Source: Eubacterium ventriosum (GTDB taxonomy: Bacteria; Bacillota; Clostridia; Lachnospirales; Lachnospiraceae). Taken from it: 64,000 bases of DNA. Of this stretch, positions 45,766 through 58,105 are shown piece by piece. The DNA lies in contig NZ_CP102282.1 in the NCBI RefSeq assembly GCF_025150745.1, positions 507,501 through 571,500 on the forward strand, read 5' to 3'. A program made the position numbers and the translations under genes. The notes beneath the pieces are model-generated. The model saw only the letters and a program-made list of their open reading frames with translations, was not told the DNA's origin and did not search any database. Position 1 is the stretch's first letter, and each line of letters opens with the position of its first letter.

Positions 45766-46623
45766 ATGAAAAAGAGAGCATTATCAATATATTGGTCTCT
45801 AAATATAGTATTAATATTTTTTATATATTGCAAATTTACGCCTATTTCTAATCAATTTACATCAGCTATATTTGATAATGTAATTATAAATTATTTGATT
45901 ATTATTTTTAATATTCTTATTGGAAAATATGTATATGATAAGATTAATGGTGAATATAGTAAATTAAATTTCGAAATACTATTTAATTGTGTTCTCGCGA
46001 TTATATGTATTTGCTCAGTAGTAGTTGATTATACTATTTCTTTTAGATGGAGTATCGTTCAAGTAGTTATATCTATATGTTTATATTTGATTTGTTATTT
46101 TGTAGTTATGAAAATTAGTATTCAAAAATATTTAATGATTTTATTGATTTTTTCATTATTGAGTACAATTTTAATCGGAGAAGCACAATATATTCAAGCT
46201 TTTAACCAGAGTAGTGAGAAAAAAATATATAGTTTTGAGGATGAAAGCATATATAAACAATATAAAAGACTATATAAGACGTTCGAGGAAATGCCACCCT
46301 ATACAGTTTTAGATTACTCCGAAGATTCTGTTTACGTTCAGGATTTAACAACTGGACAAACTGAGTATTATTCTTTTGATACTAAAAAAGAACAAGAAGA
46401 TTTTATAGGCAATCACACGATGGGGATTGATGTAAAAGTTCCACAACTAGGAACAGATGTTAGTTTTGATGATAATGATAATCAAGTCTTTTACAGGTCA
46501 TCATTTTCAGAAACAGATATAATAGAGAGGATGAAAAAAACGTCAAGCTTTTATTTTTCAGGGTTAATGGGAATGGTGTTAATTATTTCATTGGCAGGTT
46601 ATTTGTATGAAAAAAATAAATAA
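45766..46623 (+). CDS. Polytopic membrane protein with an extracytoplasmic domain
   Basis: 285 aa from ATG 45766, which follows AAAGGAGG. Four to five N-terminal helices (SIYWSLNIVLIFFIYC to YLMILLIFSLLSTILIG) are followed by a roughly 110-aa soluble segment (YKRLYKTFEEMPPYTVLDYSEDSVYVQDLTTGQTEYY) and a last helix SGLMGMVLIISLAGYLY. Overlaps the S8 protease start by 17 nt, so co-translated. No family recognised. Confidence 0.7.
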   Translation: MKKRALSIYWSLNIVLIFFIYCKFTPISNQFTSAIFDNVIINYLIIIFNILIGKYVYDKINGEYSKLNFEILFNCVLAIICICSVVVDYTISFRWSIVQVVISICLYLICYFVVMKISIQKYLMILLIFSLLSTILIGEAQYIQAFNQSSEKKIYSFEDESIYKQYKRLYKTFEEMPPYTVLDYSEDSVYVQDLTTGQTEYYSFDTKKEQEDFIGNHTMGIDVKVPQLGTDVSFDDNDNQVFYRSSFSETDIIERMKKTSSFYFSGLMGMVLIISLAGYLYEKNK

Positions 46624-47500
46624 AATCTTTTTATTAGCAATTATTTTATGTTTATTTGCAAATATGCTAGGTTGTGCAAAAAGAAATGTTAATGTACAAA
46701 AAAATGATGAACATAGGCGTCAAAGTTGGTTGAAATATATTAATTGGGATGCTGAGAGATTGAGTTATTCGGGGAAAAATATAAAAATAGCAGTTATTGA
46801 TTCCGGGATAGATCAAAACATACCTGAATTAAATTGTAAAATTGACATTGAAACATCTGTTGTAAAGAGTAATAAAGAATCAGATGTAAAACACGGAACA
46901 GCAGTTGCAAGTATTATTTCAGCAGAAAATCATTCTGATAATCAGGTAAATGGAATAGCTCATAATGCGAGAATAGTATCAATAGATGTTACAAATCAAA
47001 GCGAAGGTATTGTTGAAGTTGGTGATTTGATTAAAGGAATAGAAAAAGCAATTGAGTATAAAGTTGACATAATTAATATTAGTATTGGTTGTTTGAAAGA
47101 CGACGAGGAACTGAAAAGTGTGATAAAGAAAGCGTGGGATAATAATATAATAATTGTTTCATCTGCAGGTAATTATATGGAGAATAATGTTTTATATCCA
47201 AGTAAATATAAAGAAACATTATCAGTAGGTTCGCTAAATAAAAAAGGAAAAATAATATCACCTCAGGGTGATGTTGATAAGAAGGTTGTTTATTTTATAG
47301 GAGAAAATATAGTTTCTGCCATAGGAAATAATGAATATGCAGGGTGTGAAGGAACATCTTTTTCCACAGCAATATGTACAGGCTTAGTAGCATTGCTTTT
47401 AGAAAAGAAAAATGACAAAAAGTCAGTAAAGGAGTATATAGAAAATTTAGATTACTCAAATGGAATTGATTTTATCGAAATAATAAATAATTATAAATAA
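46607..47500 (+). CDS. Subtilisin-like (S8) serine protease, lipoprotein
   Basis: 297 aa. Lipoprotein signal with lipobox MLGC, Cys23 as lipid site. Catalytic residues are Asp65 in AVIDSGID, His96 in KHGTAVAS, Asn189 in SSAGN and Ser251 in GTSFSTA. There is almost no propeptide (about 35 aa between Cys23 and the catalytic domain), so it may be active without the usual prodomain. Likely tethered outside the membrane to process the neighbouring proteins or a peptide. Last gene before the right-end repeat. Confidence 0.9.
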   Translation: MKKINKIFLLAIILCLFANMLGCAKRNVNVQKNDEHRRQSWLKYINWDAERLSYSGKNIKIAVIDSGIDQNIPELNCKIDIETSVVKSNKESDVKHGTAVASIISAENHSDNQVNGIAHNARIVSIDVTNQSEGIVEVGDLIKGIEKAIEYKVDIINISIGCLKDDEELKSVIKKAWDNNIIIVSSAGNYMENNVLYPSKYKETLSVGSLNKKGKIISPQGDVDKKVVYFIGENIVSAIGNNEYAGCEGTSFSTAICTGLVALLLEKKNDKKSVKEYIENLDYSNGIDFIEIINNYK

Positions 47501-47953: not shown

Positions 47954-48682
47954 ATGAACCTTATGATATGCGATGACCAAAAAAGTGAACTTGAAAATAT
48001 GGGGCAAATTGTTTCCGAATATGCTCTTACACATTCGGAACTTTCGCTAACCGTGAAATGCTTCTTAAATCCATTCGATATGCTGGATGAGATGGGCAAA
48101 AGCGGTGTTCCCGACATTGTACTGTTGGATATTTGTATGCCCGGTATTTTGGGTACTGAGGTTGCACGGGAGATTCTCAGCAAAAGAGAAGGGGATACTG
48201 ACATTATCTTTCTAACCACAAGCCCCGATTTTGCGGTGGAAGCGTTTGCCCTTCATGCGGGCGATTATCTTACAAAGCCGTACACTAAACAGCGGCTGAC
48301 GGATGCACTTGACAGGCTGATTGAAAAGAGGCGTAACCGTTTATACATTCCTGTTTCGTGCGGAAAGGAAATTCACCGCATAGATTTGTTTAATGTTTTA
48401 TATGCGGAGGCAAAAAATCATAGTGTGGAAATCCATTTGAAATCCAGGAAGTGTTTGAAAACGCACACGACTCTTAAGGAGTTTAAAAATATATTTCAGA
48501 CGGCAAACGGTTTTGTGGCGGTCGGTGCGTCGTACATAGTCAATCTGCGCTGTGTCCAAAGTCTGCTTGAAACAACCCTTGAAATGTCAAATGGGGATCG
48601 CATACCCGTCCCCCGACGGCTGAGGGGAGAACTGAAAAAACAGTATTTTGATTTTTACACAAGGGAGGCAACAGAAAAATGA
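47954..48682 (+). CDS. LytTR-family response regulator (AgrA-like)
   Basis: 242 aa. The receiver domain has acidic pocket CDD near residues 6-8, phosphorylation site Asp59 in VLLDICMPG, and Lys in YLTKPY. The C-terminal LytTR DNA-binding domain has YAEAKNHSVEIHLKSR and IVNLRCVQSLLE. It would activate promoters with paired 9-bp boxes. Overlaps the kinase gene by four bases (ATGA). Codon use is richer in G/C than in the flanking element. Confidence 0.93.
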   Translation: MNLMICDDQKSELENMGQIVSEYALTHSELSLTVKCFLNPFDMLDEMGKSGVPDIVLLDICMPGILGTEVAREILSKREGDTDIIFLTTSPDFAVEAFALHAGDYLTKPYTKQRLTDALDRLIEKRRNRLYIPVSCGKEIHRIDLFNVLYAEAKNHSVEIHLKSRKCLKTHTTLKEFKNIFQTANGFVAVGASYIVNLRCVQSLLETTLEMSNGDRIPVPRRLRGELKKQYFDFYTREATEK

Positions 48683-49956
48683 CACGACAGCTTGTGGCGT
48701 TAACACTTACAGTCCTGATGCATATTGTTTGCTTTGCTATTATGACCGAACGGAAATATTCTGTAAAAAAAACAGTTTCAATTTATTTCGCATTTTTAAC
48801 CGTCTTTGTCTGTTTTGCAATGCTCGCTTCACGGGTATTGTTTGACATTCATTCTTTTTATGCTACTTCTCTTACGTTTTTAGGTACAATGCTTGTGTCG
48901 TTTATTATTTTCATGGTGACGTCGGCAGACCCTGCCTGTAAAAAGGTGTTTTTGTTTCTTAGCTATTCGTCGATGTTCTGCATTTTTTTCTGCAGTTCAG
49001 CTATGATAAGCAGCGTCTGGTTTAAAGACGGCTTCGGTATCGCTGCCGTATATGTGAAAATAATCATAAGAACCCTGCTGTATCTGCCGGTAATATGGTC
49101 ATATATCGTCTTTTTGCGTCCGGCGATACGTGAGGTTTCGGGTTCAAATAAAAAAATCTGGCACTCTATTTCGCTGGTTTCTGTACAGTTTTTAAGTGTA
49201 TTTTCTATATTTTGCTTCATTTATACTATGAAAAATGACTTCAGGGCATGGTATAGTCTTTTGTTTGCAGCCACTGTTCTGATTTATTTTTCGGTATTGT
49301 TGATTAGTTTTGGTATGATCCGTTATATGATAAAGGAAAGTCGAATGGAGTTGATTGAAGAAAACATGAAGCATCTGCAAGACCGGCTTAAAACTGCAAA
49401 AGAAAACGAGATGTCTGCCAAAACCGTCCGGCATGATTTCCGACATCACAACCAAAATATTGCCACAATGATCCAAAAGGGAGAAACCAATGAAGCTCTG
49501 CACTACATAGAACAGTACAATGAAAGTCTGGACGCTGCAAGAACGAAAGAATTTTGTTCCCATGTGACGGTAAATGCAATACTTAGCAGTTTTTATATCA
49601 AAGCGCAAAATGACGGAATTTGTATTTCAATTGAAGCGGACACGCAGGAAGGCACCAACATTAGTGATATGGATTTTGTCGCTATACTCTCAAATATTTT
49701 GGAAAACGCTGTCAATGGCTGCAAGGAATGTGGTGCTCATGGTAAGATAAATGTCAACATCCGAACTGTTTCGGATAAAACGGTTATTGTGTGTAGCAAC
49801 TCCTGTAAACCGGGGCTTGTTATCGAAAATAATATGATAAAGCATAGGGGAATCGGCATAGAGAGTATGCTGACAGCGGCGAGAAAATACGACGGCGATA
49901 TAAGTTATCGTTTAGAGAATGATGTACTCACCCTATGTGTTATTCTGAAAAAATGA
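48679..49956 (+). CDS. GHKL-type sensor histidine kinase (AgrC-like)
   Basis: 425 aa. About six N-terminal membrane helices are followed by a linker coiled coil and the HisKA-like segment TVRHDFRHHNQNIATM, whose His is the likely phosphorylation site. The N-box is ILENAVNGCKE and the G-box region GIGIESML. Partner of the LytTR regulator. No AgrB or AgrD gene is found nearby, so the signal is unknown. Convincing terminator 45 nt downstream. Confidence 0.92.
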   Translation: MTRQLVALTLTVLMHIVCFAIMTERKYSVKKTVSIYFAFLTVFVCFAMLASRVLFDIHSFYATSLTFLGTMLVSFIIFMVTSADPACKKVFLFLSYSSMFCIFFCSSAMISSVWFKDGFGIAAVYVKIIIRTLLYLPVIWSYIVFLRPAIREVSGSNKKIWHSISLVSVQFLSVFSIFCFIYTMKNDFRAWYSLLFAATVLIYFSVLLISFGMIRYMIKESRMELIEENMKHLQDRLKTAKENEMSAKTVRHDFRHHNQNIATMIQKGETNEALHYIEQYNESLDAARTKEFCSHVTVNAILSSFYIKAQNDGICISIEADTQEGTNISDMDFVAILSNILENAVNGCKECGAHGKINVNIRTVSDKTVIVCSNSCKPGLVIENNMIKHRGIGIESMLTAARKYDGDISYRLENDVLTLCVILKK

Positions 49957-50000
49957 TTTTGAAAACCAATTGCGTTCAAAAAACGACCAATTACGAAGAA

Positions 50001-50026
50001 AACCATCCGTAAGGATGGTTTTTTGT
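50001..50026 (+). terminator. Terminator after the two-component genes
   Basis: Stem AACCATCC/GGATGGTT with GTAA loop and TTTTTT. It separates regulation genes from the surface cluster. Confidence 0.88.
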
Positions 50027-50064
50027 TATACTTTATTAAATTTAATGTGTCAGGAGGTTAGAAT

Positions 50065-50214
50065 ACGAGCGTTTTTAGTAAGAAGAAGCTGACCTTTGGC
50101 AAGGCGGTAAAATTTAATTATGAACGAGGGCATGAAAAACTGAAAACAGATCAAAAACTCTTAAAAACATATAAACAGACAGGCTTATGGGAAGGGGAAT
50201 GGAACGAATTATGA
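50065..50214 (+). CDS. Possible 49-aa basic ORF with non-canonical ACG start
   Basis: A frame opens right after the stop at 50059 and runs to a TGA (50212-50214) that overlaps the ATG of the large surface gene. AGGAGG at 50052-50057 is ideally spaced for codon 50065, but that codon is ACG. Translation after it reads SVFSKKKLTFGKAVKFNYE and ends GLWEGEWNEL. A single T-to-C change of ATG would explain it. Coupling to the next gene supports a real or recently lost gene. No family recognised. Confidence 0.45.
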   Translation, partial: TSVFSKKKLTFGKAVKFNYERGHEKLKTDQKLLKTYKQTGLWEGEWNEL

Positions 50215-53200
50215 AGGATAAGAAAAAGAGAATAGTAAAACGCCTGGCGGCGGTGACCTTGAGTCTTATTATTGTGCTTTCTCAGATTGGTGGTACAGCA
50301 CCATGGAACAGCGGATTTGCTGTCCGTGGGGCGGAGGTATCTTCACCTATAGTTTTGAAAAGAATTGACGGCAGCGGAGAAGCCTTCATTTACCACAGCT
50401 TTGTGGAAACAAAGTCCTTTACGACAGGTCAGACTTATGCATTTTTAAACGGCATTTTCAATTATGACGATGGTGTGTCCGCGCTTGGAGCAGGAGCAAT
50501 CTTAAAGGCGACGGATGTGACAAACAGATCCGCCCACTACATAAAAAACAAGTATGGAACAAATGCCGAGGTAAAGGTTTATGTGGACGTAGTTACACCG
50601 GGCAAGGATTTTGATAACTGTGTAGTCGGAGGACTTTATGAGGTTCCGAATTCCGGAACTCCTACGGGATACCGTTATTTTTGCGGATATGGCGGAGCAC
50701 AAAACTGCGGGCCATACTACGCTTATAACTATGAGAAGGAAAGTATTACCTCCGGAGATATATCGGCGTCATTGAATGATATTGAAAAGCAAGGTTCGGG
50801 AAATTCAAAGGATTACACAGTAACGATTACATATGACGGAAATAAAAGCAAGATTTTAGACCACGGAAGTTATACAGTTAAGTTTACTACTCCTGACAAG
50901 GTAAAATTTGTTGTTTCAGACAGCGAGGGAAATTCCATTACGGCGAATTTTCAATGTCCGCTGGCTGTACGCTATGATGGAAACAACGAAAATGCAGGTA
51001 ATATTCCTTCCACTCAGGCGACTTGGAAGGGAGAAAGCATCAAAATATCTACCCAAAAACCAACCCGCGCCGGTTATTCGTTTGTAAACTGGAAAGATGC
51101 TGAAACCGGCACGACATATGCGGCAGGACAGAGCTTTACTCCTACGAAATCAACGAGGCTTTTAGCTCAGTGGAAAGATAGCCAGGCACCGAATGTTGGC
51201 TATACGCCTACTCAGGTTATGACGGGAGACTCCGATGAGGCTGTGAAAGACGCGGTGCGGGCTGCGCTCACTATCACGGATAATGAGCCTGCTTCAGAAT
51301 GTACGGTTACTGTGACTTTACCAGCAGACTTTACTAAAACACCGGGGAATAAAAATGCTACGGTAAAAGTCACGGATAAGGCAGGAAATACCACTACAAA
51401 GATCTGCTCAGTTTACGTTTCTTCTTATGTGGATATTTCGACACCGGTTTTCACGAAAGATACAAAAAATCTCACCTCTACGTTGAACAATCCCGGCACT
51501 GATGCAGTTACAGAAAGTGGCTTTGTTTGGGGCGTTATGAACTCACCGAGCCTTACCGTAAATAACGGAAAAGCAACAACGACGACCATAGCAGGTAAGG
51601 CGGGAGACAAAATTTCCGTTACGGCGAATAATCTGCAAAAGGGTGTAAAATATTATGCAAGAGCGTATATTACCGCAGGCGGAGTTACTTATTACAGCGA
51701 GGAGATCACAATAGGGCTGGGCCTACCCGCATACGGTACTTTTACAATAAAAAACAATGGTAGCAATACCTTTACGGTGACAAGAAGCGGCGGCAGCGAG
51801 GGCAGCCAGACTGTCTATTTCCGCACGGTAAATGGTTCGGCGGTAGGCGGCACGCACTTTACACACAAAAATGGCACATTGACCTTTAAAGAAGGAGAAA
51901 CATCAAAAACCATAACAATAAGCGAAAAGACAACAAACGCACCGTATAGTGGCAAGCCAGCCACTGCTTATAGTAACGCAGACCGTACCTATTCGGTGGA
52001 AATCTACCGCATAACGGGTGGCGGAGCCCTTGGAAGTCCTGCAAATGCAACGAGGACATTGAAAAAAGTTAGCGGATATACGGTGGACAGAACTGTGTAC
52101 AATGAGACGGAAAGAGCCGTAACCATTACAGACAGCAACAAGTGGGTTGCTGACCAGTCAGGTACCGGAGACTGGAAAATATATTTTCAAAATAGCAGAG
52201 GAAAAAATACCAATCAGATAAATTTCAATGTAAACAAAGCCATTGACTCATCCTATTTAAAGGCGACGGCATCCGGATTTTATTACAGAGCATACTTTAA
52301 TTTTAAAGAAAAAGAAAATGGATACCAGCTTGCGTGGATGGGAAATCACGCCCCGAATAGTTGTGGTCCTTCTACGATCAGAAGCAAGTCGGCAATACCG
52401 ATAGACGACAGCAAGTTTGGCAGTGCTTACTTTACCGCCACATGGGAGACGGGTTCAGGTACAACTAAGCCTGATGGCGCATTGAATCTTCCGGCTATGA
52501 CCGGAACACAGATTTCTGCGGTAAACGGAACGAATGCAGCAAGCGGTAGAAGAGTCGAAAACAACAAATACATATTGTTTGACATTAACGATACCGCTCA
52601 TGTCTGGTTCTCGTCAGCCGGTAGTGGCGAAGATATCTGGTACATGAACAGCTATAACGATTACACTATGATTTACGACCCTATTGAACCCCAGCTTGTG
52701 GCAGTTGCTCCTATGGCAGGAGGTACTTACAAGATTGGAGATTCATTTATAGTTTCGTTAATTTTTGACGAAATTGTAGATAGCACGAACAGTGGCACTC
52801 TTTCAAGTGTTAAGGTGAACACATCATGGGGAACGGCCTCTTATGTTGGAGGAGCGAATACAAACGTTCTCTATTTTAAGGGGACTGTAGCGAATAACGC
52901 AAGTGGAAAACTCACTGTAAACGGATTTACAAATCCAAGTTATATCAAGGATATGTGCGACGTTACAACTACAAAGGCGACAACAAGCGGCACGGGTACC
53001 ACAACTGCAACCGTTAACACATCCGTTCCGAAATTCACCGTTACGAGAAACGGAATTACCAATGGCACGGGCAAAGCAACGATTAAAGTTGATGCGAATC
53101 AGACAAAAACCACGGGAATGAGTTACGCATGGTCGGATTCAACGACTGCACCGACAACAGGTTGGGTGGAACTTTCATCATCAGAGCTTACCACCGCAAA

Positions 53201-55109
53201 AAATTCAGGGCTTTCGCTATCCATTCGTAAAGAACCGGGTAGTGGCACAAGCAATGGCAAGTGGTATCTTCATGTAAAAGCAGTTTATGCTACAACGGGA
53301 GCTTCGGATTACAAAAACGTTTGTCTTGATTTCGGCACGGCGTCAACCCCCGCAACGGGAAGCACACCACCAACGCTCACTGTTACGGCTAATAATACGA
53401 ATTGGGCTACAAGCAGAAGCATAAAAATTTCGACAACCGGTGCAGAAACTCTGAAATACCGCAAGTCGGATGCAACCACGTGGACAACATTAAGTTCAAC
53501 TGCAACAAGCGTTACAGTTACAAATAACGGTTATTATACATTCCTATTGACAGCGGGAGATGTTACTGTTTCCAAAACTGTTCAGGTTGAAAAAATTGAT
53601 CGGGAAGCCCCTACGGCTTCTGTCGGAGAGTTGACAAGCGGAACCGTTGAATCACCAAAAAGTGGTGTTTATACAAAAATTGTTTTACCTATAACCTATG
53701 CCGATGCACATTCGGGAGTAAAAACCGTGCAATACAGTTGGACGAACAGCACTGTAACACCGACTTCGTGGAGTACACTTCGGACAGGTGCAAAAACAGT
53801 TGCTTATACGGCGACCGAAAGTGTGCTGACAACTAAATATCTGCATATTAAGGTTTTTGATAATCTTAGTCACACTTGCACAGCCTATTCGCAGGCTTAT
53901 ACGGTGATTTCCCAAACGGCGGTTGAGAATCATGCACCGACGATTACCATAGAAGGTGCACTGACAGCATGGACAAACGATATGGCGACATTAACCTGGA
54001 GGCTTTCAAATTACACCGGAAAAAATTACGAAGTTATTTTACCGGATGGCAAAACAAGCATAGAGCCAAATGGTCAGGTCTGGGCAAGGCAGAATGGCGA
54101 CTATACGGTGACTGTCCGAGATCTTGACTACGGCGGAAAGAACAGTGCAACTATAAAGGTTGATAAACTTGACTTTGACCCACCGACTGTAACCGTAAGC
54201 GGTGGTTCAAACAGCTGGTCGAAAGATGATCAGGTCATTACTATAACCGCAAGCGATAGTCAAAGTGGCGTTGGCGAAAAATGGTACAAAGTAGTTTCAA
54301 ATACCGAGGAAATTCCAACCGAGGGTCTGACGAAGCTTACCGGGAATACAATTACCGTAAGTGATGAAGGTAAGTATTACATTTATTACAAGATTTACGA
54401 TAATGCAGGGGACACGGAGACAGGCAGAGAAGCCAATAAAACAGAGGGCTTTAAGCTTGTTCAAATAGACAAGACACCTCCTGAAATTACCTTTGGTGAG
54501 TATTCCGCAGGATCGGGAATGACTGTGACTGTAAAGGACGGTGAGGATGGTACAGGTTTGTCGGGGCTTGCTTCGGTTACATATAAGATAGAAAACAGCG
54601 AGGAAACTCTGAAAACAGAAAACATTTCGGTAAGCGGGAAAACCAATGTTAGCTTTACACTGACGGAAATCCCCGCAGGAGATATAAGGATAACTGTAAC
54701 AGCCGTTGATAATGCGGGAAACAGTTTTGTAAGTTACAAGGACATTCATGTTGACATTGTCAGCGTGGATATCACATGGGGAGACATGGAATTTACTTAC
54801 TCGGATGGAACATGGAACGCAGAAACTCATACCTACGAGGGTGTCGGCTGGAGTCCGGATAAAACGGATGGAAATAAAATTACCGTACAAAACAGTGGCG
54901 ATGTTGAGGTCAGCGTATCCTATCGATACACGCAGACAAAGAGTCAGGTGTCCGGTGGCTTTACCGATGGGGAAGCAGTTATTACCGCACCGGTTGTCCT
55001 TCCGGCAGCAGAAAAGAAATCTGCGTGGTTGAGTTTAAACGGAAAACCGACAGAATCAATGGAAAAATCGGTACTCGGTTCGGTAACAGTAACAGTTGGA
55101 GGTGATTAA
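50211..55109 (+). CDS. Giant secreted multidomain surface protein
   Basis: 1632 aa from ATG 50211 (MKDKKKRIVKRLAAVTL); upstream ATGs at 50187 and 50199 lack proper spacing. A signal peptide (LAAVTLSLIIVLSQIGGTAPW) is followed by an InlB/Flg_new-type repeat near 250-322 (GYSFVNWKDAETG), a Calx-beta-like domain near 505-620 (VGGTHFTHKNGTLTFKEGE), and several Ig-like Thr/Ser-rich domains with DxxPP boundaries (DREAPTASV, DFDPPTVTV, DKTPPEITF). The last 114 aa (VDITWGDMEFTYSDGTWN) are the domain shared with the two small secreted proteins downstream. No LPxTG or C-terminal helix. Likely an adhesin or matrix protein. Confidence 0.85.
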   Translation: MKDKKKRIVKRLAAVTLSLIIVLSQIGGTAPWNSGFAVRGAEVSSPIVLKRIDGSGEAFIYHSFVETKSFTTGQTYAFLNGIFNYDDGVSALGAGAILKATDVTNRSAHYIKNKYGTNAEVKVYVDVVTPGKDFDNCVVGGLYEVPNSGTPTGYRYFCGYGGAQNCGPYYAYNYEKESITSGDISASLNDIEKQGSGNSKDYTVTITYDGNKSKILDHGSYTVKFTTPDKVKFVVSDSEGNSITANFQCPLAVRYDGNNENAGNIPSTQATWKGESIKISTQKPTRAGYSFVNWKDAETGTTYAAGQSFTPTKSTRLLAQWKDSQAPNVGYTPTQVMTGDSDEAVKDAVRAALTITDNEPASECTVTVTLPADFTKTPGNKNATVKVTDKAGNTTTKICSVYVSSYVDISTPVFTKDTKNLTSTLNNPGTDAVTESGFVWGVMNSPSLTVNNGKATTTTIAGKAGDKISVTANNLQKGVKYYARAYITAGGVTYYSEEITIGLGLPAYGTFTIKNNGSNTFTVTRSGGSEGSQTVYFRTVNGSAVGGTHFTHKNGTLTFKEGETSKTITISEKTTNAPYSGKPATAYSNADRTYSVEIYRITGGGALGSPANATRTLKKVSGYTVDRTVYNETERAVTITDSNKWVADQSGTGDWKIYFQNSRGKNTNQINFNVNKAIDSSYLKATASGFYYRAYFNFKEKENGYQLAWMGNHAPNSCGPSTIRSKSAIPIDDSKFGSAYFTATWETGSGTTKPDGALNLPAMTGTQISAVNGTNAASGRRVENNKYILFDINDTAHVWFSSAGSGEDIWYMNSYNDYTMIYDPIEPQLVAVAPMAGGTYKIGDSFIVSLIFDEIVDSTNSGTLSSVKVNTSWGTASYVGGANTNVLYFKGTVANNASGKLTVNGFTNPSYIKDMCDVTTTKATTSGTGTTTATVNTSVPKFTVTRNGITNGTGKATIKVDANQTKTTGMSYAWSDSTTAPTTGWVELSSSELTTAKNSGLSLSIRKEPGSGTSNGKWYLHVKAVYATTGASDYKNVCLDFGTASTPATGSTPPTLTVTANNTNWATSRSIKISTTGAETLKYRKSDATTWTTLSSTATSVTVTNNGYYTFLLTAGDVTVSKTVQVEKIDREAPTASVGELTSGTVESPKSGVYTKIVLPITYADAHSGVKTVQYSWTNSTVTPTSWSTLRTGAKTVAYTATESVLTTKYLHIKVFDNLSHTCTAYSQAYTVISQTAVENHAPTITIEGALTAWTNDMATLTWRLSNYTGKNYEVILPDGKTSIEPNGQVWARQNGDYTVTVRDLDYGGKNSATIKVDKLDFDPPTVTVSGGSNSWSKDDQVITITASDSQSGVGEKWYKVVSNTEEIPTEGLTKLTGNTITVSDEGKYYIYYKIYDNAGDTETGREANKTEGFKLVQIDKTPPEITFGEYSAGSGMTVTVKDGEDGTGLSGLASVTYKIENSEETLKTENISVSGKTNVSFTLTEIPAGDIRITVTAVDNAGNSFVSYKDIHVDIVSVDITWGDMEFTYSDGTWNAETHTYEGVGWSPDKTDGNKITVQNSGDVEVSVSYRYTQTKSQVSGGFTDGEAVITAPVVLPAAEKKSAWLSLNGKPTESMEKSVLGSVTVTVGGD

Positions 55110-55111
55110 GT

Positions 55112-55648
55112 ATGACCGATGACAAGAAAGAAAACAAAAAAAAGTGGCTACTACTTTTGCTTTTGCTACTTATTACAATTGCCGCGGTGGGATTAAGCGT
55201 TTGGGCGATATGGTTTCGTGATGGTGATGCCATCCTTGCTCCAGATTATGCACCACAGCAGGTTGAGGAAAACGCCGAACCAATCGGTGACGATGGGGAG
55301 AAAAAACTCTCACAGCCAGAGGGCGGCGGAGCAGTAGGTCTTACCTATGCAAAAGAGGTAGATATCAGCCTTTCGGATAAGAAGGCAACACTTTTGTTTG
55401 CCAATCCGACAAAATCCAATCAGGATATGGTACTTCAGCTTGTAATAGATGACGTTGTTATCCTGCAATCGGGTAGATTGGAGCCTGGCAACAGGGTTTC
55501 CGCACTGAACCTTTTGGACGGTGCCGAAAAGAAGCTTGCTGCAGGAGGCTATGACGGAAAAATCGTTGTCCTGTATTATGACCGCACAAGCGCAGAAAAA
55601 GCTATGGTCAATACGGAAATTCCCGTAACTGTGACGGTGACGGAGTAG
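55112..55648 (+). CDS. Membrane-anchored beta-domain surface protein, paralogue 1
   Basis: 178 aa. Charged N-terminus, one membrane helix (WLLLLLLLLITIAAVGLSVWAIW), a Pro/Glu-rich linker (PDYAPQQVEENAEP), then a beta-rich domain (ATLLFANPTKSNQDMVLQLVIDD, ILQSGRLEPGNRVSALNL, VNTEIPVTVTV). The same layout recurs in the 56.9-kb gene. ATG 55112 follows GGAGG inside the end of the giant gene. It may anchor the assembly to the membrane. No named family recognised. Confidence 0.75.
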   Translation: MTDDKKENKKKWLLLLLLLLITIAAVGLSVWAIWFRDGDAILAPDYAPQQVEENAEPIGDDGEKKLSQPEGGGAVGLTYAKEVDISLSDKKATLLFANPTKSNQDMVLQLVIDDVVILQSGRLEPGNRVSALNLLDGAEKKLAAGGYDGKIVVLYYDRTSAEKAMVNTEIPVTVTVTE

Positions 55649-55705
55649 TACTTTTTCGCCTGCAAGGGCGTGAAATATATAAACATAAAGAAAGGAATTT
55701 TTAAT

Positions 55706-56224
55706 ATGAAAAAATTATTTGTTATGCTTTTAACTCTTACGATTTTGGCAGTACCGGTTACCGCCTATGGGGGAGAAGATACCATAGGCAAAAACGAAAA
55801 CCGAAGCATTGATGTGCAGGCAAAGTATGCAAACGGTACGGACACACCAGATGTTTACAGTGTAAACGTTGCATGGGGAGCAATGCAATTTACCTATTCT
55901 GCCGCAGGTACCAGAGTGTGGGATCCTTCTAAACATCAATATACCGACAACATCACAACAAATTGGACTGCAGACGGAGATACGGTCACCGTAACTAATC
56001 ATTCCAACAAGGATGTGAATGTGAGTTTTGCTTATGCAAAAGCTTCCGGTTTTGAAGATGTAAACGGTGCATTCAGTGTGGAGTCTAAAACGCTGAACGC
56101 AGGTACTGTAGATGATGTGGCGGGGGCTGACGGCGTAAGTACTAAACTAACGCTTTCCGGAACCCTTGCAAGTAATATTACCAATTTTACAAAAGTCGGT
56201 TCTATTACAGTTTCCCTGAATTAA
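55706..56224 (+). CDS. Small secreted surface protein with W-G-x-M-x-F-T-Y domain (1)
   Basis: 172 aa from ATG 55706 after AAAGGA. Sec signal peptide (KLFVMLLTLTILAVPVTAYG), short linker, then a single domain: VNVAWGAMQFTYSAAGTRVW, H-x-Y, VTVTNHSNKDVNVSFAY, ending KVGSITVSLN. It is homologous to the C-terminus of the giant protein and to the next gene. No anchor of its own, so it may bind the wall or its partners. Confidence 0.8.
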   Translation: MKKLFVMLLTLTILAVPVTAYGGEDTIGKNENRSIDVQAKYANGTDTPDVYSVNVAWGAMQFTYSAAGTRVWDPSKHQYTDNITTNWTADGDTVTVTNHSNKDVNVSFAYAKASGFEDVNGAFSVESKTLNAGTVDDVAGADGVSTKLTLSGTLASNITNFTKVGSITVSLN

Positions 56225-56257
56225 TTTGTATTTTATATCAGAAAGGAATATAGAGAA

Positions 56258-56794
56258 ATGAAAAAAATATTTGCAATTATTATTTCTTTGGCGCTACTTT
56301 CTACGGCGTCTGTAACTGCCTTTGCGGCAAGTCCTATCACAGCTAAAGATGGAAGTGACTCCGCAGTGGTTAAGGGTACTTATGTTGCGGGCGATGCTTC
56401 AGCAACAGTTTACAGTGTAGATATTGCCTGGGGAAGTATGGAATTTACTTATACAGACGCTTCAAAAGGAACATGGAATCCGGATACGCACGGCTATGAC
56501 GGTGCCAAGGCTGCTACATGGAGTTGCGCGACAGACGCAAACAAAATCGAAGTCACAAATCATTCTAATGCCAATGTAACTGCACAGCTCAGCTATGCAC
56601 CTGAGTCAGGATACAACGGAATTAGCGGAAGTTTCTCTGATGGTGGAACACTGAATCTCAATAGCGCTGTAGATACTAGATATTCAGCCGCACCTTCGGG
56701 TAGCGCAACTCTCAGCCTGACCGGAGATCTTGCTTCCGATACTTCTGCAAAAACAAAAATCGGTGTAGTAACAGTGACCCTCGTAAACGAATAA
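56258..56794 (+). CDS. Small secreted surface protein with W-G-x-M-x-F-T-Y domain (2)
   Basis: 178 aa. Sec signal peptide (KIFAIIISLALLSTASVTAFA), then VDIAWGSMEFTYTDASKGTW, the NPDTHGYDG stretch, EVTNHSNANVTAQLSY, and the end KIGVVTVTLVNE. Its tandem neighbour differs but keeps the Trp-Gly, Phe-Thr-Tyr, Trp-Asn/Asp and Asn-His-Ser positions. ATG 56258 follows AAAGGA. Confidence 0.82.
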   Translation: MKKIFAIIISLALLSTASVTAFAASPITAKDGSDSAVVKGTYVAGDASATVYSVDIAWGSMEFTYTDASKGTWNPDTHGYDGAKAATWSCATDANKIEVTNHSNANVTAQLSYAPESGYNGISGSFSDGGTLNLNSAVDTRYSAAPSGSATLSLTGDLASDTSAKTKIGVVTVTLVNE

Positions 56795-56925
56795 TATCAT
56801 CGGAATTTAGGATGCGTGCTAACATGCAGCCTGTGTTATGATGGAGATTATCCCTGATTTCTGCTTATCAAGATAATGGGGAGAGGATATGAGGGATGGT
56901 AAAAAATGTACAGGAGTCTAAAAAT

Positions 56926-57411
56926 ATGAAGTGTAAAGCCATTTATTTCTCTGCTGCCATTTGCTTTCTTGCTGTTCTCGGAATGGTCCTGTCTTTTGTT
57001 CTGACAGGTGGAAGAACTGAGCAACCAAAGTTTACACCGCCGCCATTTGAGGAAACAGCACAAAGTGGTATGCCAGATGTGGCGGACGAAAGCTGGACGC
57101 AGATTTATAAGGATGGAATGAATTTCTCAACCCATGTATGCGGCAAAGTCGTTTTGAATGGTAACTCCGCGGATGTGTACTTAACCAATGATGAAGGCAA
57201 CAAGGTCTGGTTAAAGTTGCGCATTCTTGATGAAGAGGACAATATTCTTGCCGAAACAGGACTTTTAAAGCCGAATGAATATGTCAAGACGGTTACATTT
57301 GACAAAATTCCTAAAAGCGGAGCAAACATAAAACTTAAAATAATGGCGTACGAGCCGGATACTTATTATAGCGCCGGAGCTGTAACGCTGAATACCACTG
57401 TGGGAGGATGA
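56926..57411 (+). CDS. Membrane-anchored beta-domain surface protein, paralogue 2
   Basis: 161 aa from ATG 56926 (AGGAG 9 nt upstream); an earlier ATG at 56896 is possible. One N-terminal membrane helix (FSAAICFLAVLGMVLSFVL), a Pro-rich linker (PKFTPPPFEE), then a beta domain similar to the 55.1-kb gene (KVWLKLRILDEEDNILAETGLLKPNEYV, ... TLNTTVGG). Shares layout with paralogue 1. Confidence 0.72.
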   Translation: MKCKAIYFSAAICFLAVLGMVLSFVLTGGRTEQPKFTPPPFEETAQSGMPDVADESWTQIYKDGMNFSTHVCGKVVLNGNSADVYLTNDEGNKVWLKLRILDEEDNILAETGLLKPNEYVKTVTFDKIPKSGANIKLKIMAYEPDTYYSAGAVTLNTTVGG

Positions 57412-57415
57412 AAAT

Positions 57416-58105
57416 ATGAAAAAAACAGCTGTTCTCATTGCCAGCGTTATATTGTCCATTTTTTGTTCTTTGCCGGTTTTCGCCACCGGGAACAATCTGC
57501 CGGAAGAAAAGACGATCGGCGTGTTTGCAAAAGCGGTTTATACGCTTCCTGATGGCTGTTACGGTGCAAAAAAAGACAATGACGGACATTATGTTGTAGA
57601 ATTACCTGACGGCATTAAGATTACATTGACATCGAAATCCGATGTTACTTCCTTACGAATGGTGATTTTTCCAATTACCAAACAGGATAAACGGGCTTAT
57701 CAGTGGATTTCAGACTGTACAACTAATCTCGGAACCAATATTTTGTTTTATGAAATTTATTTTATAGATGAGTACGGAACTCGTGTTGACGTGAATAAGA
57801 CGCTTCAGGTGAACATTACCTTGCCAAAGGGTTATGGTGTGCCTAAAGTAGCTAAGATTTCCACAAACGGAAGTCTATCACAGCTTGTTTCAAAAAGCGA
57901 TAGCAATAAAATATCCTTTACCATTGATAAAGGAGGATACTATGCCGTTGTATCAGCGAGGGCTGGTAGTACCGTTACACATATTTTTCCTAAAACCGGC
58001 GAAAAAAGCATGATAAATATTTGGATTGCTTTGTTTTTTGTCTCCGGAATAGGCGTAGCGGGAACCGCAGTCTATGGAAGAAAGAAAAAATATTCTGCAA
58101 AATAA
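57416..58105 (+). CDS. Cell-wall-anchored surface protein with FPKTG sorting signal
   Basis: 229 aa. Signal peptide (TAVLIASVILSIFCSLPVFA), a beta-rich body, then the C-terminal sorting signal FPKTGEKS, a membrane helix (IWIALFFVSGIGVAGTAVYG) and RKKK. FPKTG is a variant of LPxTG used in pilin-type sortase substrates. No sortase gene is in the island, so a housekeeping sortase elsewhere is implied. Last gene of the cluster. Confidence 0.85.
   Translation: MKKTAVLIASVILSIFCSLPVFATGNNLPEEKTIGVFAKAVYTLPDGCYGAKKDNDGHYVVELPDGIKITLTSKSDVTSLRMVIFPITKQDKRAYQWISDCTTNLGTNILFYEIYFIDEYGTRVDVNKTLQVNITLPKGYGVPKVAKISTNGSLSQLVSKSDSNKISFTIDKGGYYAVVSARAGSTVTHIFPKTGEKSMINIWIALFFVSGIGVAGTAVYGRKKKYSAK

Follow-up and report, generated by a model that had tools for sequence, protein, structure and literature searches.

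The window analysed here, 64,000 nucleotides of Eubacterium ventriosum (NZ_CP102282.1, positions 507,501 to 571,500), raises the question of what is built by a set of neighboring genes whose products share one domain, and how the parts are joined to each other and to the cell wall. A sequence-only reading had described these genes as a six-gene cell-surface assembly cluster at 50065..58105. Our analysis suggests that a gene set recurring in gut clostridia builds a cell-surface complex, in which a short interchangeable protein strand may link the parts and fasten them to the wall.

The block and its flanks

GC content is 0.39-0.46 in each of the ten 1-kb bins from 47954 and 0.28-0.37 just outside, where the genome reference is 0.353 +/- 0.045 (395 sampled kb). 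Because GC jumps at 47954, the two-component system at 47954-49956 belongs to the same block (47954-58105) as the operon (Table 1). Thus, the six genes stand as first read from the ORF list, but the left boundary at 50065 does not, and the natural unit starts at 47954. The regulator and sensor kinase genes overlap by 4 bases, homologues of the kinase are present in some other loci of this kind, and the pair probably switches the operon on. The direct repeats that follow the kinase gene have the format of LytTR sites, and we take them, suggestively only, as a candidate site; repeats of similar period occur in loci L038, L041, and L044, and none was found in the scanned stretches of L017, L040, and L032.

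The last gene had been read as carrying an FPKTG sorting signal, and indeed FPKTG is followed in its product by a hydrophobic segment and then a basic tail. The LPXTG models of Pfam and NCBIfam fall just short on this protein (15.6 vs 15.9 bits) or do not list it, and the genome has nine sortase matches.

Table 1. Features of the block, in positions of the window
Feature	Position	Strand	Basis or remark
Response regulator, receiver + LytTR DNA-binding domain	47954..48682	+	Pfam PF00072 9.6e-16, PF04397 8.6e-14; inside GC block
Membrane sensor kinase, GHKL type (HATPase_c_5)	48679..49956	+	Pfam PF14501 3.5e-11
Candidate site for the LytTR regulator: pair of 10-bp direct repeats with one mismatch, starts 21 bp apart	49965..49995	+	
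Short hairpin with T-run, then TATACT -10-like hexamer at 50027	49999..50032	+	Sequence reading
Giant secreted protein, 1640 aa; Calx-beta + OmpL47-type modules; C-terminal large-type W domain	50187..55109	+	
Giant's C-terminal W domain, without N-terminal strand	54738..55106	+	BLAST 3.4e-16; large-type clade
ANC_A, membrane-anchored; N-terminal TM + probable Ig-like domain	55112..55648	+	Clade A of ANC tree
Small secreted single-domain W protein 1	55706..56224	+	ATG within longer ORF starting 55670
Putative N-terminal strand SIDVQAKY of small W protein 1	55805..55828	+	
Small secreted single-domain W protein 2	56258..56794	+	BLAST, three-way alignment
Putative N-terminal strand SAVVKGTY of small W protein 2	56360..56383	+	
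ANC_B, membrane-anchored, ANC_A paralogue	56896..57411	+	Clade B of ANC tree; profile link to ANC_A
Sortase-anchored partner, 229 aa	57416..58105	+	Homologues in other W loci; FPKTG + TM + basic tail
Partner's strand-like mature N-terminus TIGVFAKAVY, weak motif variant	57512..57541	+	Likeness by eye only
FPKTG sorting signal of partner	57986..58000	+	Sequence reading

A phage origin was considered and rejected, since the two matching 'Bacteriophage sp.' records are short, unannotated fecal scaffolds marked UNVERIFIED, one of them with the whole bacterial operon layout. A scan of IMG/VR with a three-sequence alignment of the shared domain found no relative, and a plasmid search gave no match. 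The flanking fructokinase gene had no match at E 1e-50 in 22 other genomes of the genus, and thus these offered no empty insertion site for comparison.

The W domain and its gene neighborhood

We use "W domain" as a working name for the shared domain with the pattern Val-x-Trp-Gly-x-Met-x-Phe-Thr-Tyr. When the protein encoded at 56258-56794 was used in BLAST against its own genome with E up to 1, only itself and two other copies were found, at E 6.5e-28 (38% identity) and 3.4e-16 (44%, the giant's C-terminus). These values are far above chance and confirm that the domain is common to the giant's C-terminus and both small secreted proteins. The three-way alignment has 27 invariant columns, including W58, G59, M61, FTY63-65, W73, H78, Y80, W88, V99, N101, G169, and TV172-173. 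A named family of different function would have spoken against the sequence-only reading, and profile searches of Pfam and NCBIfam gave no match to the W domain at an accepted score; the domain is previously undescribed and absent from both collections. It either makes up a single-domain secreted subunit or ends a large protein, and the N-termini of these large proteins are varied and adhesin-like or enzyme-like (BspA-type LRR, GLUG, MucBP, CBM26, cohesin, metallophosphatase). The large-type W domains form one clade of 24 members, C-terminal in their proteins.

The neighborhood is conserved elsewhere: among 51 loci with a W domain, 43 carry the ANC membrane family, 26 of them with both paralogues, and 8 have no nearby ANC. 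Gene set and gene order are conserved across these loci, and the sorted partner is often present. The two membrane-anchored proteins of the operon are paralogues, since an iterated profile search from either retrieves the other (E 1.2e-39 and 7.8e-49) at a pairwise identity of only 21%. Their TM helix is N-terminal, neither Pfam nor NCBIfam has a family that matches them, and position in the operon predicts whether an ANC protein falls in clade A or clade B of the ANC tree. ANC is found in 24 of 393 genomes of the class vs 4 of 393 for W, the own genome being counted in both.

An N-terminal motif on small subunits and partners

When W domains were scored together with their N-terminal extension, a motif (SIDVTATY) exceeded the shuffled 95% level on 70 of 71 small W subunits vs 1 of the 24 large-type domains, and the median gain from the extension was 26.2 bits vs 6.4 bits. 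The small proteins were scored with five-fold models, and the model of the first fold was used for the large-type and shuffled sequences. The sole large-type domain above the shuffled level is L032_7828, and the giant's own domain lies below it. Outside the large-type clade, five W domains of large proteins (L036, L042, L045, and two in L046) carry the extension (12.7-16.8 bits vs a shuffled level of 10.6), so the statement that the tip has no strand fails there. That large-type domains are without the strand could merely reflect another domain preceding them. A regular-expression test for the strand gave a weaker contrast (59/68 vs 11/37); inspected by eye, those 11 matches include some small-type proteins and some cases in which the final strand of a repeat ahead of the domain was hit.

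The motif is also present on 14 of 19 partners vs 1 of 40 other secreted proteins. The partners were drawn from 28 ANC_B positions, 22 of which have a downstream ORF; five unrelated-looking ones (L024, L033, L036, L043, L048) were dropped to leave 17, and two more (L013, L032), whose contigs have no ANC_B, were included. This selection was not blind, in that the motif had already been noticed by eye; in a subset defined by homology only (15 at E below 1e-20), 11 of 15 pass. Partners with a visible C-terminal anchor pass in 9 of 14 cases (10 if L020 is read further), and the remainder pass in 5 of 5 (L008, L009, L012, L022, L025) but are cut short or without a sorting signal. The window's own partner fails, at 0.9 vs a shuffled 95% level of 6.2. 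Some short partners consist of little beyond the strand motif, a linker, and an anchor (L032, which was scored, and L081, L083, L087, and L089, judged by eye). We rejected the ANC proteins as carriers of the motif, as only 7 of 97 exceed the shuffled 95% level (3/38, 3/28, and 1/31). From these scores, we conclude that the motif is common to the small subunits and most partners and is missing from the large-type clade.

Co-assembly through the shared W domain, as first proposed, is still an inference from sequence, and the N-terminal strand is a candidate joining element that is new relative to that proposal. The reading that we favor, tentatively and with a little less than even confidence, is that the operon encodes a self-assembling surface complex formed by donor-strand assembly on a wall-anchored strand. 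The motif would be a beta-strand, and the W core would be a beta-sandwich whose open edge is filled by the neighbor's N-terminal strand, as in the donor-strand exchange of TasA filaments and chaperone-usher pili, with ANC_A and ANC_B holding or chaperoning subunits at the membrane. The chain would run from the wall-anchored partner (strand only) through the small W subunit or subunits to a tip formed by the large W protein, which would act only as an acceptor; if so, the large proteins would be exchangeable cargo.

Donor-strand assembly in a Gram-positive is known from TasA/TapA, where a second protein starts assembly by strand donation (PMC9674648, PMC10151520). These Bacillus filaments resemble the W proposal in having a secreted beta-sandwich subunit with an N-terminal strand and a strand-donating starter protein, which for W is only proposed, but a sortase-anchored strand and a cargo-bearing large subunit are not mentioned in the available text of the same two reports. 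No TasA/camelysin family is among the Pfam and NCBIfam families listed for W. Chaperone-usher pili, the spore coat U type among them, share donor-strand subunits, a tip adhesin without a strand, and an Ig-like chaperone with the proposal, whereas membrane-tethered partner proteins and sortase wall anchoring are found only in the proposal. The SCPU family, which we take to be chaperone-usher pilins, has no W match among the families listed.

The same observations could be read as WxL-like display without strand exchange, where a wall polymer is the ligand of the W domain itself, the membrane proteins stabilise the domain, and the small-domain fold simply includes the N-terminal segment. A domain that sits C-terminally behind exchangeable cargo is what one would expect of a wall-binding module, and the logic and the small/large split match those of WxL domains, which fall into WxL1 and WxL2 (Siezen 2006, PMC1534035). 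We regard this as unlikely, though a serious rival, because it leaves unexplained why the same motif is on partners without a detected W domain and why some of these are hardly more than segment plus anchor.

Comparison with WxL, TIPA, and SVTVP clusters

That the operon mirrors WxL (Csc) logic with a different motif is borne out by its layout. In the W locus, as in the WxL/Csc clusters of Lactobacillales and Bacillales, one cluster holds a small single-domain protein, a large protein that ends in the domain and bears exchangeable cargo, an Ig-like membrane protein, and a short sortase substrate, and the domain has small and large subtypes. The systems differ in that W has two membrane paralogues with an N-terminal TM, whereas WxL/Csc has one DUF916-DUF3324 protein with a C-terminal TM. 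W is found in Clostridia, from which csc genes are reported absent in the available text of Siezen 2006 (PMC1534035), and the window's partner is longer than CscD, given there as 90-140 aa.

There is no detectable homology behind this likeness. PF13731 (WxL) has no match in the own genome and is absent among the best 25 of 41 families listed for 80 W members, the remaining families having one member each at E of at least 0.05; when the profiles of W and of 12 WxL proteins were compared, P was 0.46. W as a WxL homologue is thus rejected at the sequence level, and ANC as a DUF916/DUF3324 relative is rejected with 0 of 55 members matching in the complete listing of 23 families. The own genome yields nothing for PF06030; one of the 80 W members has a chance-level match to it (E 0.018). 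These results, together with the TM helix at the opposite end, make it improbable that W is a true distant WxL/Csc member whose homology is lost to sequence methods, even though the layout is the same and, judged by eye, W, TIPA, and some WxL proteins have a similar segment and turn ahead of the first core strand.

The short wall peptide of enterococcal WxL clusters resembles the N-terminus of the neighboring small WxL protein in 3 of 5 pairs (at most 1 of 200 shuffles), and 2 of 5 pairs are no better than shuffles. This test cuts at fixed positions and does not include the L144 and L146 pairs of an earlier WxL test, in which the permutations (6 and 3 of 24) did not show cluster specificity of the peptide match. 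That earlier test drew some of its best matches from linkers rich in Pro, and L144, among its four 'CscD' proteins, is without a sorting signal, so the five-pair test is the more trustworthy.

TIPA and SVTVP are working names for small proteins that adjoin other ANC genes. Their loci resemble those of W in the ANC family, in having small secreted proteins, in a similar gene layout at several loci, and sometimes in a short anchored partner (6/20 loci), but the small-protein sequence differs, and of 14 TIPA/SVTVP small proteins scored for the W motif, only 3 pass. Although jackhmmer from a TIPA protein reached W, signal peptides aided this, and as mature sequences gave an hhalign P of 0.11, we do not claim one family. 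The anchored partner resembles the small protein of its own cluster in five ANC clusters that lack W (0/200 shuffles; 3, 4, and 9 of 120 permutations for three word sizes); at word size 6, the within-cluster match is the top one in only 2 of the 5 rows. This shuffle and permutation version replaced an earlier within-cluster strand test that was set aside for signal-peptide bias.

The ANC genes are constant companions, TIPA-type loci included, and the motif, which ANC itself lacks, is found at the N-terminal end of the mature small exported parts, whether or not these are anchored. It could therefore be a handling signal that is read by ANC or another export factor, and not a structural donor strand. 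However, large-type W proteins are exported from the same operon without the motif, and the WxL wall peptide also resembles its small subunit though the membrane proteins there are unrelated, and we give this explanation little credence relative to donor-strand assembly.

A broader possibility, which we consider doubtful but worth stating, is a widespread Gram-positive principle in which a wall-anchored peptide, its only recognisable part a beta-strand, is the base of donor-strand-assembled complexes with Ig-like membrane-tethered chaperones and large acceptor-only cargo tips; W, TIPA, and SVTVP of Clostridia and WxL/CscD of Bacilli would be four versions of it. The short sortase-anchored CscD peptides were left with 'as yet unknown interactions' (Siezen 2006, PMC1534035). 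If true, the principle would give them a function: a motif found on anchored peptides as well as on small subunits, across families that show no detectable homology, is one testable answer to the role of CscD and could explain the puzzling tiny wall proteins of lactic acid bacteria. It would also define a display system of gut Clostridia made from domains outside Pfam and NCBIfam, with cargo that includes carbohydrate-binding, cohesin, and adhesin-type modules.

Among TIPA-type proteins, the single large one seen (L082) does contain a strand-like segment, which counts against the donor-strand proposal. Of 10 TIPA/SVTVP proteins that were scanned, one scores 22.7 bits for SCPU, where the cut-off is 22.4.

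The W domain and its gene neighborhood

The sequence-only reading described a six-gene surface cluster, and its open reading frames are located as it stated. The domain it placed at the C-terminus of the giant protein and in both small secreted proteins (here, the W domain) is real: when one small W protein was used to search its own genome with an E threshold of 1, the matches were the protein itself and the other two copies (E 6.5e-28 and 3.4e-16). The domain spans ~125 residues, with the core VYSVDIxWGxMxFTY ... WNPxTHxY ... W ... ITVTNHSN ... IGTVTVT in the 80-member consensus.

No accepted match in Pfam, NCBIfam, or PHROGs was found for the window's W, membrane, and sorted proteins; ORF 55670-56224 has a weak match (E 1.4e-4) to a PHROG of unknown function, and the last gene scores slightly below the cut-off of the LPXTG anchor model. 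When 80 W and 55 membrane members were scanned singly, no Pfam family occurred in more than two members, and isolated matches of single W members include MBG_2 (8.7e-7) and a CS1 fimbrial family (0.0016). The commonest weak NCBIfam match, ExtJ (in 17 of the 80 W members, with a best E of 2.6e-5), is read as a probable signal-peptide or low-level match because none of the W proteins in the window shows it even with an E threshold of 1. Against the PDB, the W domain gave nothing convincing; the membrane-anchored family (ANC) matched designed immunoglobulin folds (E 0.0024 and 0.011) and FliL (0.012), which weakly suggests an Ig-like domain. The proposed likeness to WxL clusters stands as an analogy and fails as membership.

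Scanning GTDB genomes for the W domain yielded 48 loci, of which 27 can be placed in Oscillospiraceae or Lachnospiraceae from their record titles; the remainder are mostly labelled only Clostridia, Clostridiales, or Eubacteriales, with one 'bacterium', and most are metagenome-assembled. Together with the window, genome locus L057, and fecal scaffold L096, this made 51 loci. The gene neighborhood is conserved elsewhere: ANC adjoins W genes in 43 of the 51. Both paralogues (ANC_A and ANC_B) are present at 26 loci, A alone at 11, and B alone at 6, while 8 loci have no ANC. The gene for the large protein typically comes first, followed by ANC_A, between one and four small W genes, ANC_B, and the sorted partner. 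Among the loci that extend more than 4 kb to the left and more than 3 kb to the right of the cluster (19 in all), 15 have ANC, 11 have both paralogues, and 8 have an identified partner. L096 (MT837052) and L097 (MT838868) are 'Bacteriophage sp.' records of the phage collection, UNVERIFIED, from human fecal material in Mexico, with W domains; L096 is probably misassigned bacterial DNA, because it holds a bacterial surface operon.

Positions of features and of individual observations
Feature	Locus	Position	Strand	Remark
Subtilisin-type protease (named by eye)	window	46607-47500		lipoprotein-like; 28% GC; immediately left of raised-GC block
ANC_A	window	55112-55648
Small W protein	window	55706-56224
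Small W protein	window	56258-56794
ANC_B	window	56896-57411
Partner	window	57416-58105		229 aa, FPKTG
First ANC, fused	L046	8492-9970		Robinsoniella, Agathobacter, or related MAG (L046, L051, L054); fused behind an N-terminal part that is repetitive-looking, GLUG-like by eye; internal TM
First ANC, fused	L051	1-1272		as L046
First ANC, fused	L054	7599-9062		as L046
Flagellin-like gene (by eye)	L050	1946-3232		directly after W/ANC genes; one Lachnospiraceae MAG
Flagellin-like gene (by eye)	L051	2741-4027		as L050, same MAG
Partner	L025	4012-4905		dockerin-like end by eye in place of sorting signal
TIPA-type small secreted protein	L090	6428-6922	-	Clostridia genome
Short LPXTG gene	L147	4655-5007		E. 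mundtii plasmid; beside WxL gene; the short gene itself annotated as two pieces, may be broken

In a tree of 97 ANC proteins, all 28 position-B genes lie on one side of a branch with moderate support (88/93), and 34 of 38 position-A genes fall within a single clade of 37 rows (100/100). The remaining four rows labelled A, each the second ANC gene of a locus of the Robinsoniella type, group with B (100/98). The divergence of A and B therefore probably predates the spread of the clusters.

GC is 0.39-0.46 in all ten 1-kb bins starting at 47954, against 0.28-0.37 in the adjoining kilobases and a genome average of 0.353 (s.d. 0.045, 395 sampled kilobases), and so the block takes in the upstream LytTR regulator and GHKL kinase. 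The raised GC points to foreign origin but does not prove it, because the genome sample holds other long runs of at least 0.38 (20 kb and 9 kb). The W domain was found in its own genome only among 60 related genomes (22 other genus members included), in 4 of 393 genomes of the class, its own included, and in its own only among 398 drawn from the phylum. An iterated search found kinase homologues in 8 W loci besides the window; a one-pass search at E 1e-20 found the regulator in 2 W loci and the kinase in 4 (window counted), and neither in 20 ANC loci without W.

A putative strand motif in small W proteins and partners

The tree of 105 W cores, in which bootstrapping is unsettled and many inner forks are open, contains a 24-row clade (support 96/83), here called large-type, whose members are C-terminal in proteins of 170 to 2332 aa, the 170-aa protein being hardly more than the domain itself. 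In a scan of 16 proteins, in which the L013 entry is the gene preceding the W-bearing one, the N-termini carried BspA-type LRR (L008), GLUG, MucBP, InlB-type repeats, CBM26, cohesin, YDG/MBG, or a purple-acid-phosphatase-like metallophosphatase; the front part of the window's giant has Calx-beta and OmpL47-type modules. The L020 protein gave no family, and the sole match of the first L037 protein and of L044 was below the Pfam cut-off. With a constant C-terminus behind exchangeable front parts, the W C-terminus looks like a docking or anchoring domain. The cohesin of L034 lies within its W protein.

Between signal peptide and core, 70 of 71 small W proteins carry a profile-recognised segment (consensus SIDVTATY, then a turn) that adds a median 26.2 bits in cross-validation, and 70 of 71 exceed the shuffled-segment 95% level of 10.6. 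For the large-type clade the gain from the segment is 6.4 bits, with 1 of 24 domains above that level (Mann-Whitney p 3e-13, a value too small since the sequences are related). Ten further W domains, neither small nor large-type, all exceed the shuffled level (12.7-26.0 bits), and five of these are C-terminal in large proteins (L036, L042, L045, and two in L046), which argues against a strict rule that large proteins lack the segment. The motif is not a feature of the ANC proteins, of which 7 of 97 exceed the shuffled 95% level.

The same motif lies at the mature N-terminus of the partners: scores above the shuffled 95% level were obtained for 14 of 19 partners and for 1 of 40 other secreted proteins from the examined loci; a fifteenth partner, from L020, was missed with a shortened segment and scores 14.0 once read further. 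Of the 19, 14 have a hydrophobic anchor at the C-terminus together with a sorting motif of the TG type (nine xPxTG or xPxTS, five xxTGD by eye), and 9 of these 14 pass the motif test. The other five all pass: L008 is a short ORF close to the end of its contig, L009, L012, and L025 show no membrane anchor, and L022 has a hydrophobic end with the sorting motif absent. The 120-aa partner of Blautia sp. MSJ-19 (L032) is made up of signal peptide, putative strand DVDVVVRY (score 8.3), linker, and VPETG. In the window's partner the corresponding segment is TIGVFAKAVY, with a score of only 0.9. The window genome (G000:C1) has nine sortase-domain matches above the Pfam cut-off, one within a 1646-codon open frame, and only two Gram_pos_anchor matches, that model missing the FPKTG protein.

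Matching pairs and a proposed donor-strand model

An anchored partner is present in 6 of 20 ANC loci without W, four being 84 to 107 aa (L081, L083, L087, and L089, the last with a membrane end and no sorting motif); the putative strands of the short ones were assigned by eye. Five of the six clusters have an anchored protein whose mature N-terminus resembles the small protein of that cluster (TTSVSV/STEVSV; GSTDVY/GNSDVY; GSDLTV/GSEIKV; ATSFSF/GTNFTF; EGSTTV/SGSTEV), and the sixth, L083, has no small protein of that type nearby. The summed likeness is above 200 of 200 shuffles. At word sizes 6, 8, and 10 it is equalled by 3, 4, and 9 of 120 permutations between clusters, and only 2 of 5 rows have their own partner as the best match when words of 6 are used. 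The N-terminal motif of W proteins itself occurs in 3 of 14 small secreted proteins tested (of 22 named) of the TIPA and SVTVP types found at such loci.

For WxL clusters the analysis covered 15 plasmid records, of which some are nearly identical, together with four stretches from a single genome; a script found six distinct short sorted proteins there, five with a small WxL gene nearby. In three of the five pairs at most 1 of 200 shuffles did as well as the true match (RSVETEGTVSFT/RNVTTDGTIEFT; IAQDVRQVETNG/LANEVRDVTTDG; EANYDSNGVTAF/GGNYDSNGVITF), and the other two did not match beyond shuffles (41 and 48 of 200). Four hand-picked pairs from three plasmids were as a group above 300 of 300 shuffles and not clearly better than permutations (6 and 3 of 24). 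Several tested WxL proteins have a long Pro-rich linker between segment and domain.

In AlphaFold models of WxL proteins, an N-terminal strand tethered by a long irregular stretch covers the WxL platform (Hassan and Williamson, PMC9772566), and a DUF916 hairpin inserts beside that strand (Hassan and Williamson, PMC10599100); TasA fibres assemble by donor-strand exchange, with TapA as strand donor (PMC9674648, PMC10151520). Set beside the present data, these make donor-strand assembly the most economical model, though we hold it tentatively, at slightly less than even confidence, and infer every step beyond the sequence facts. The wall-anchored partner would offer a strand, each small W subunit would accept one and offer its own, the large-type protein, as acceptor only, would end the chain, and ANC proteins would hold open subunits at the membrane. 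That a wall-anchored strand is the base of donor-strand-assembled complexes in general (W, TIPA, SVTVP, and WxL with its short sortase-anchored CscD peptides) seems rather doubtful. We place neither higher because of the anchored partners that fall short of the motif test and the five large proteins that carry the extension outside the large-type clade.

The new element is the motif common to small subunit and partner. In a literature search covering few subscription journals, only one review mentions both WxL and donor strand, each once; combinations of donor strand, sortase, and WxL domain gave no paper on point by title among the matches listed, and the W motif as a word gave nothing. With 22.7 bits against a cut-off of 22.4, the L090 protein just qualifies for the Pfam family of spore coat protein U, which belongs to the chaperone-usher pilins.
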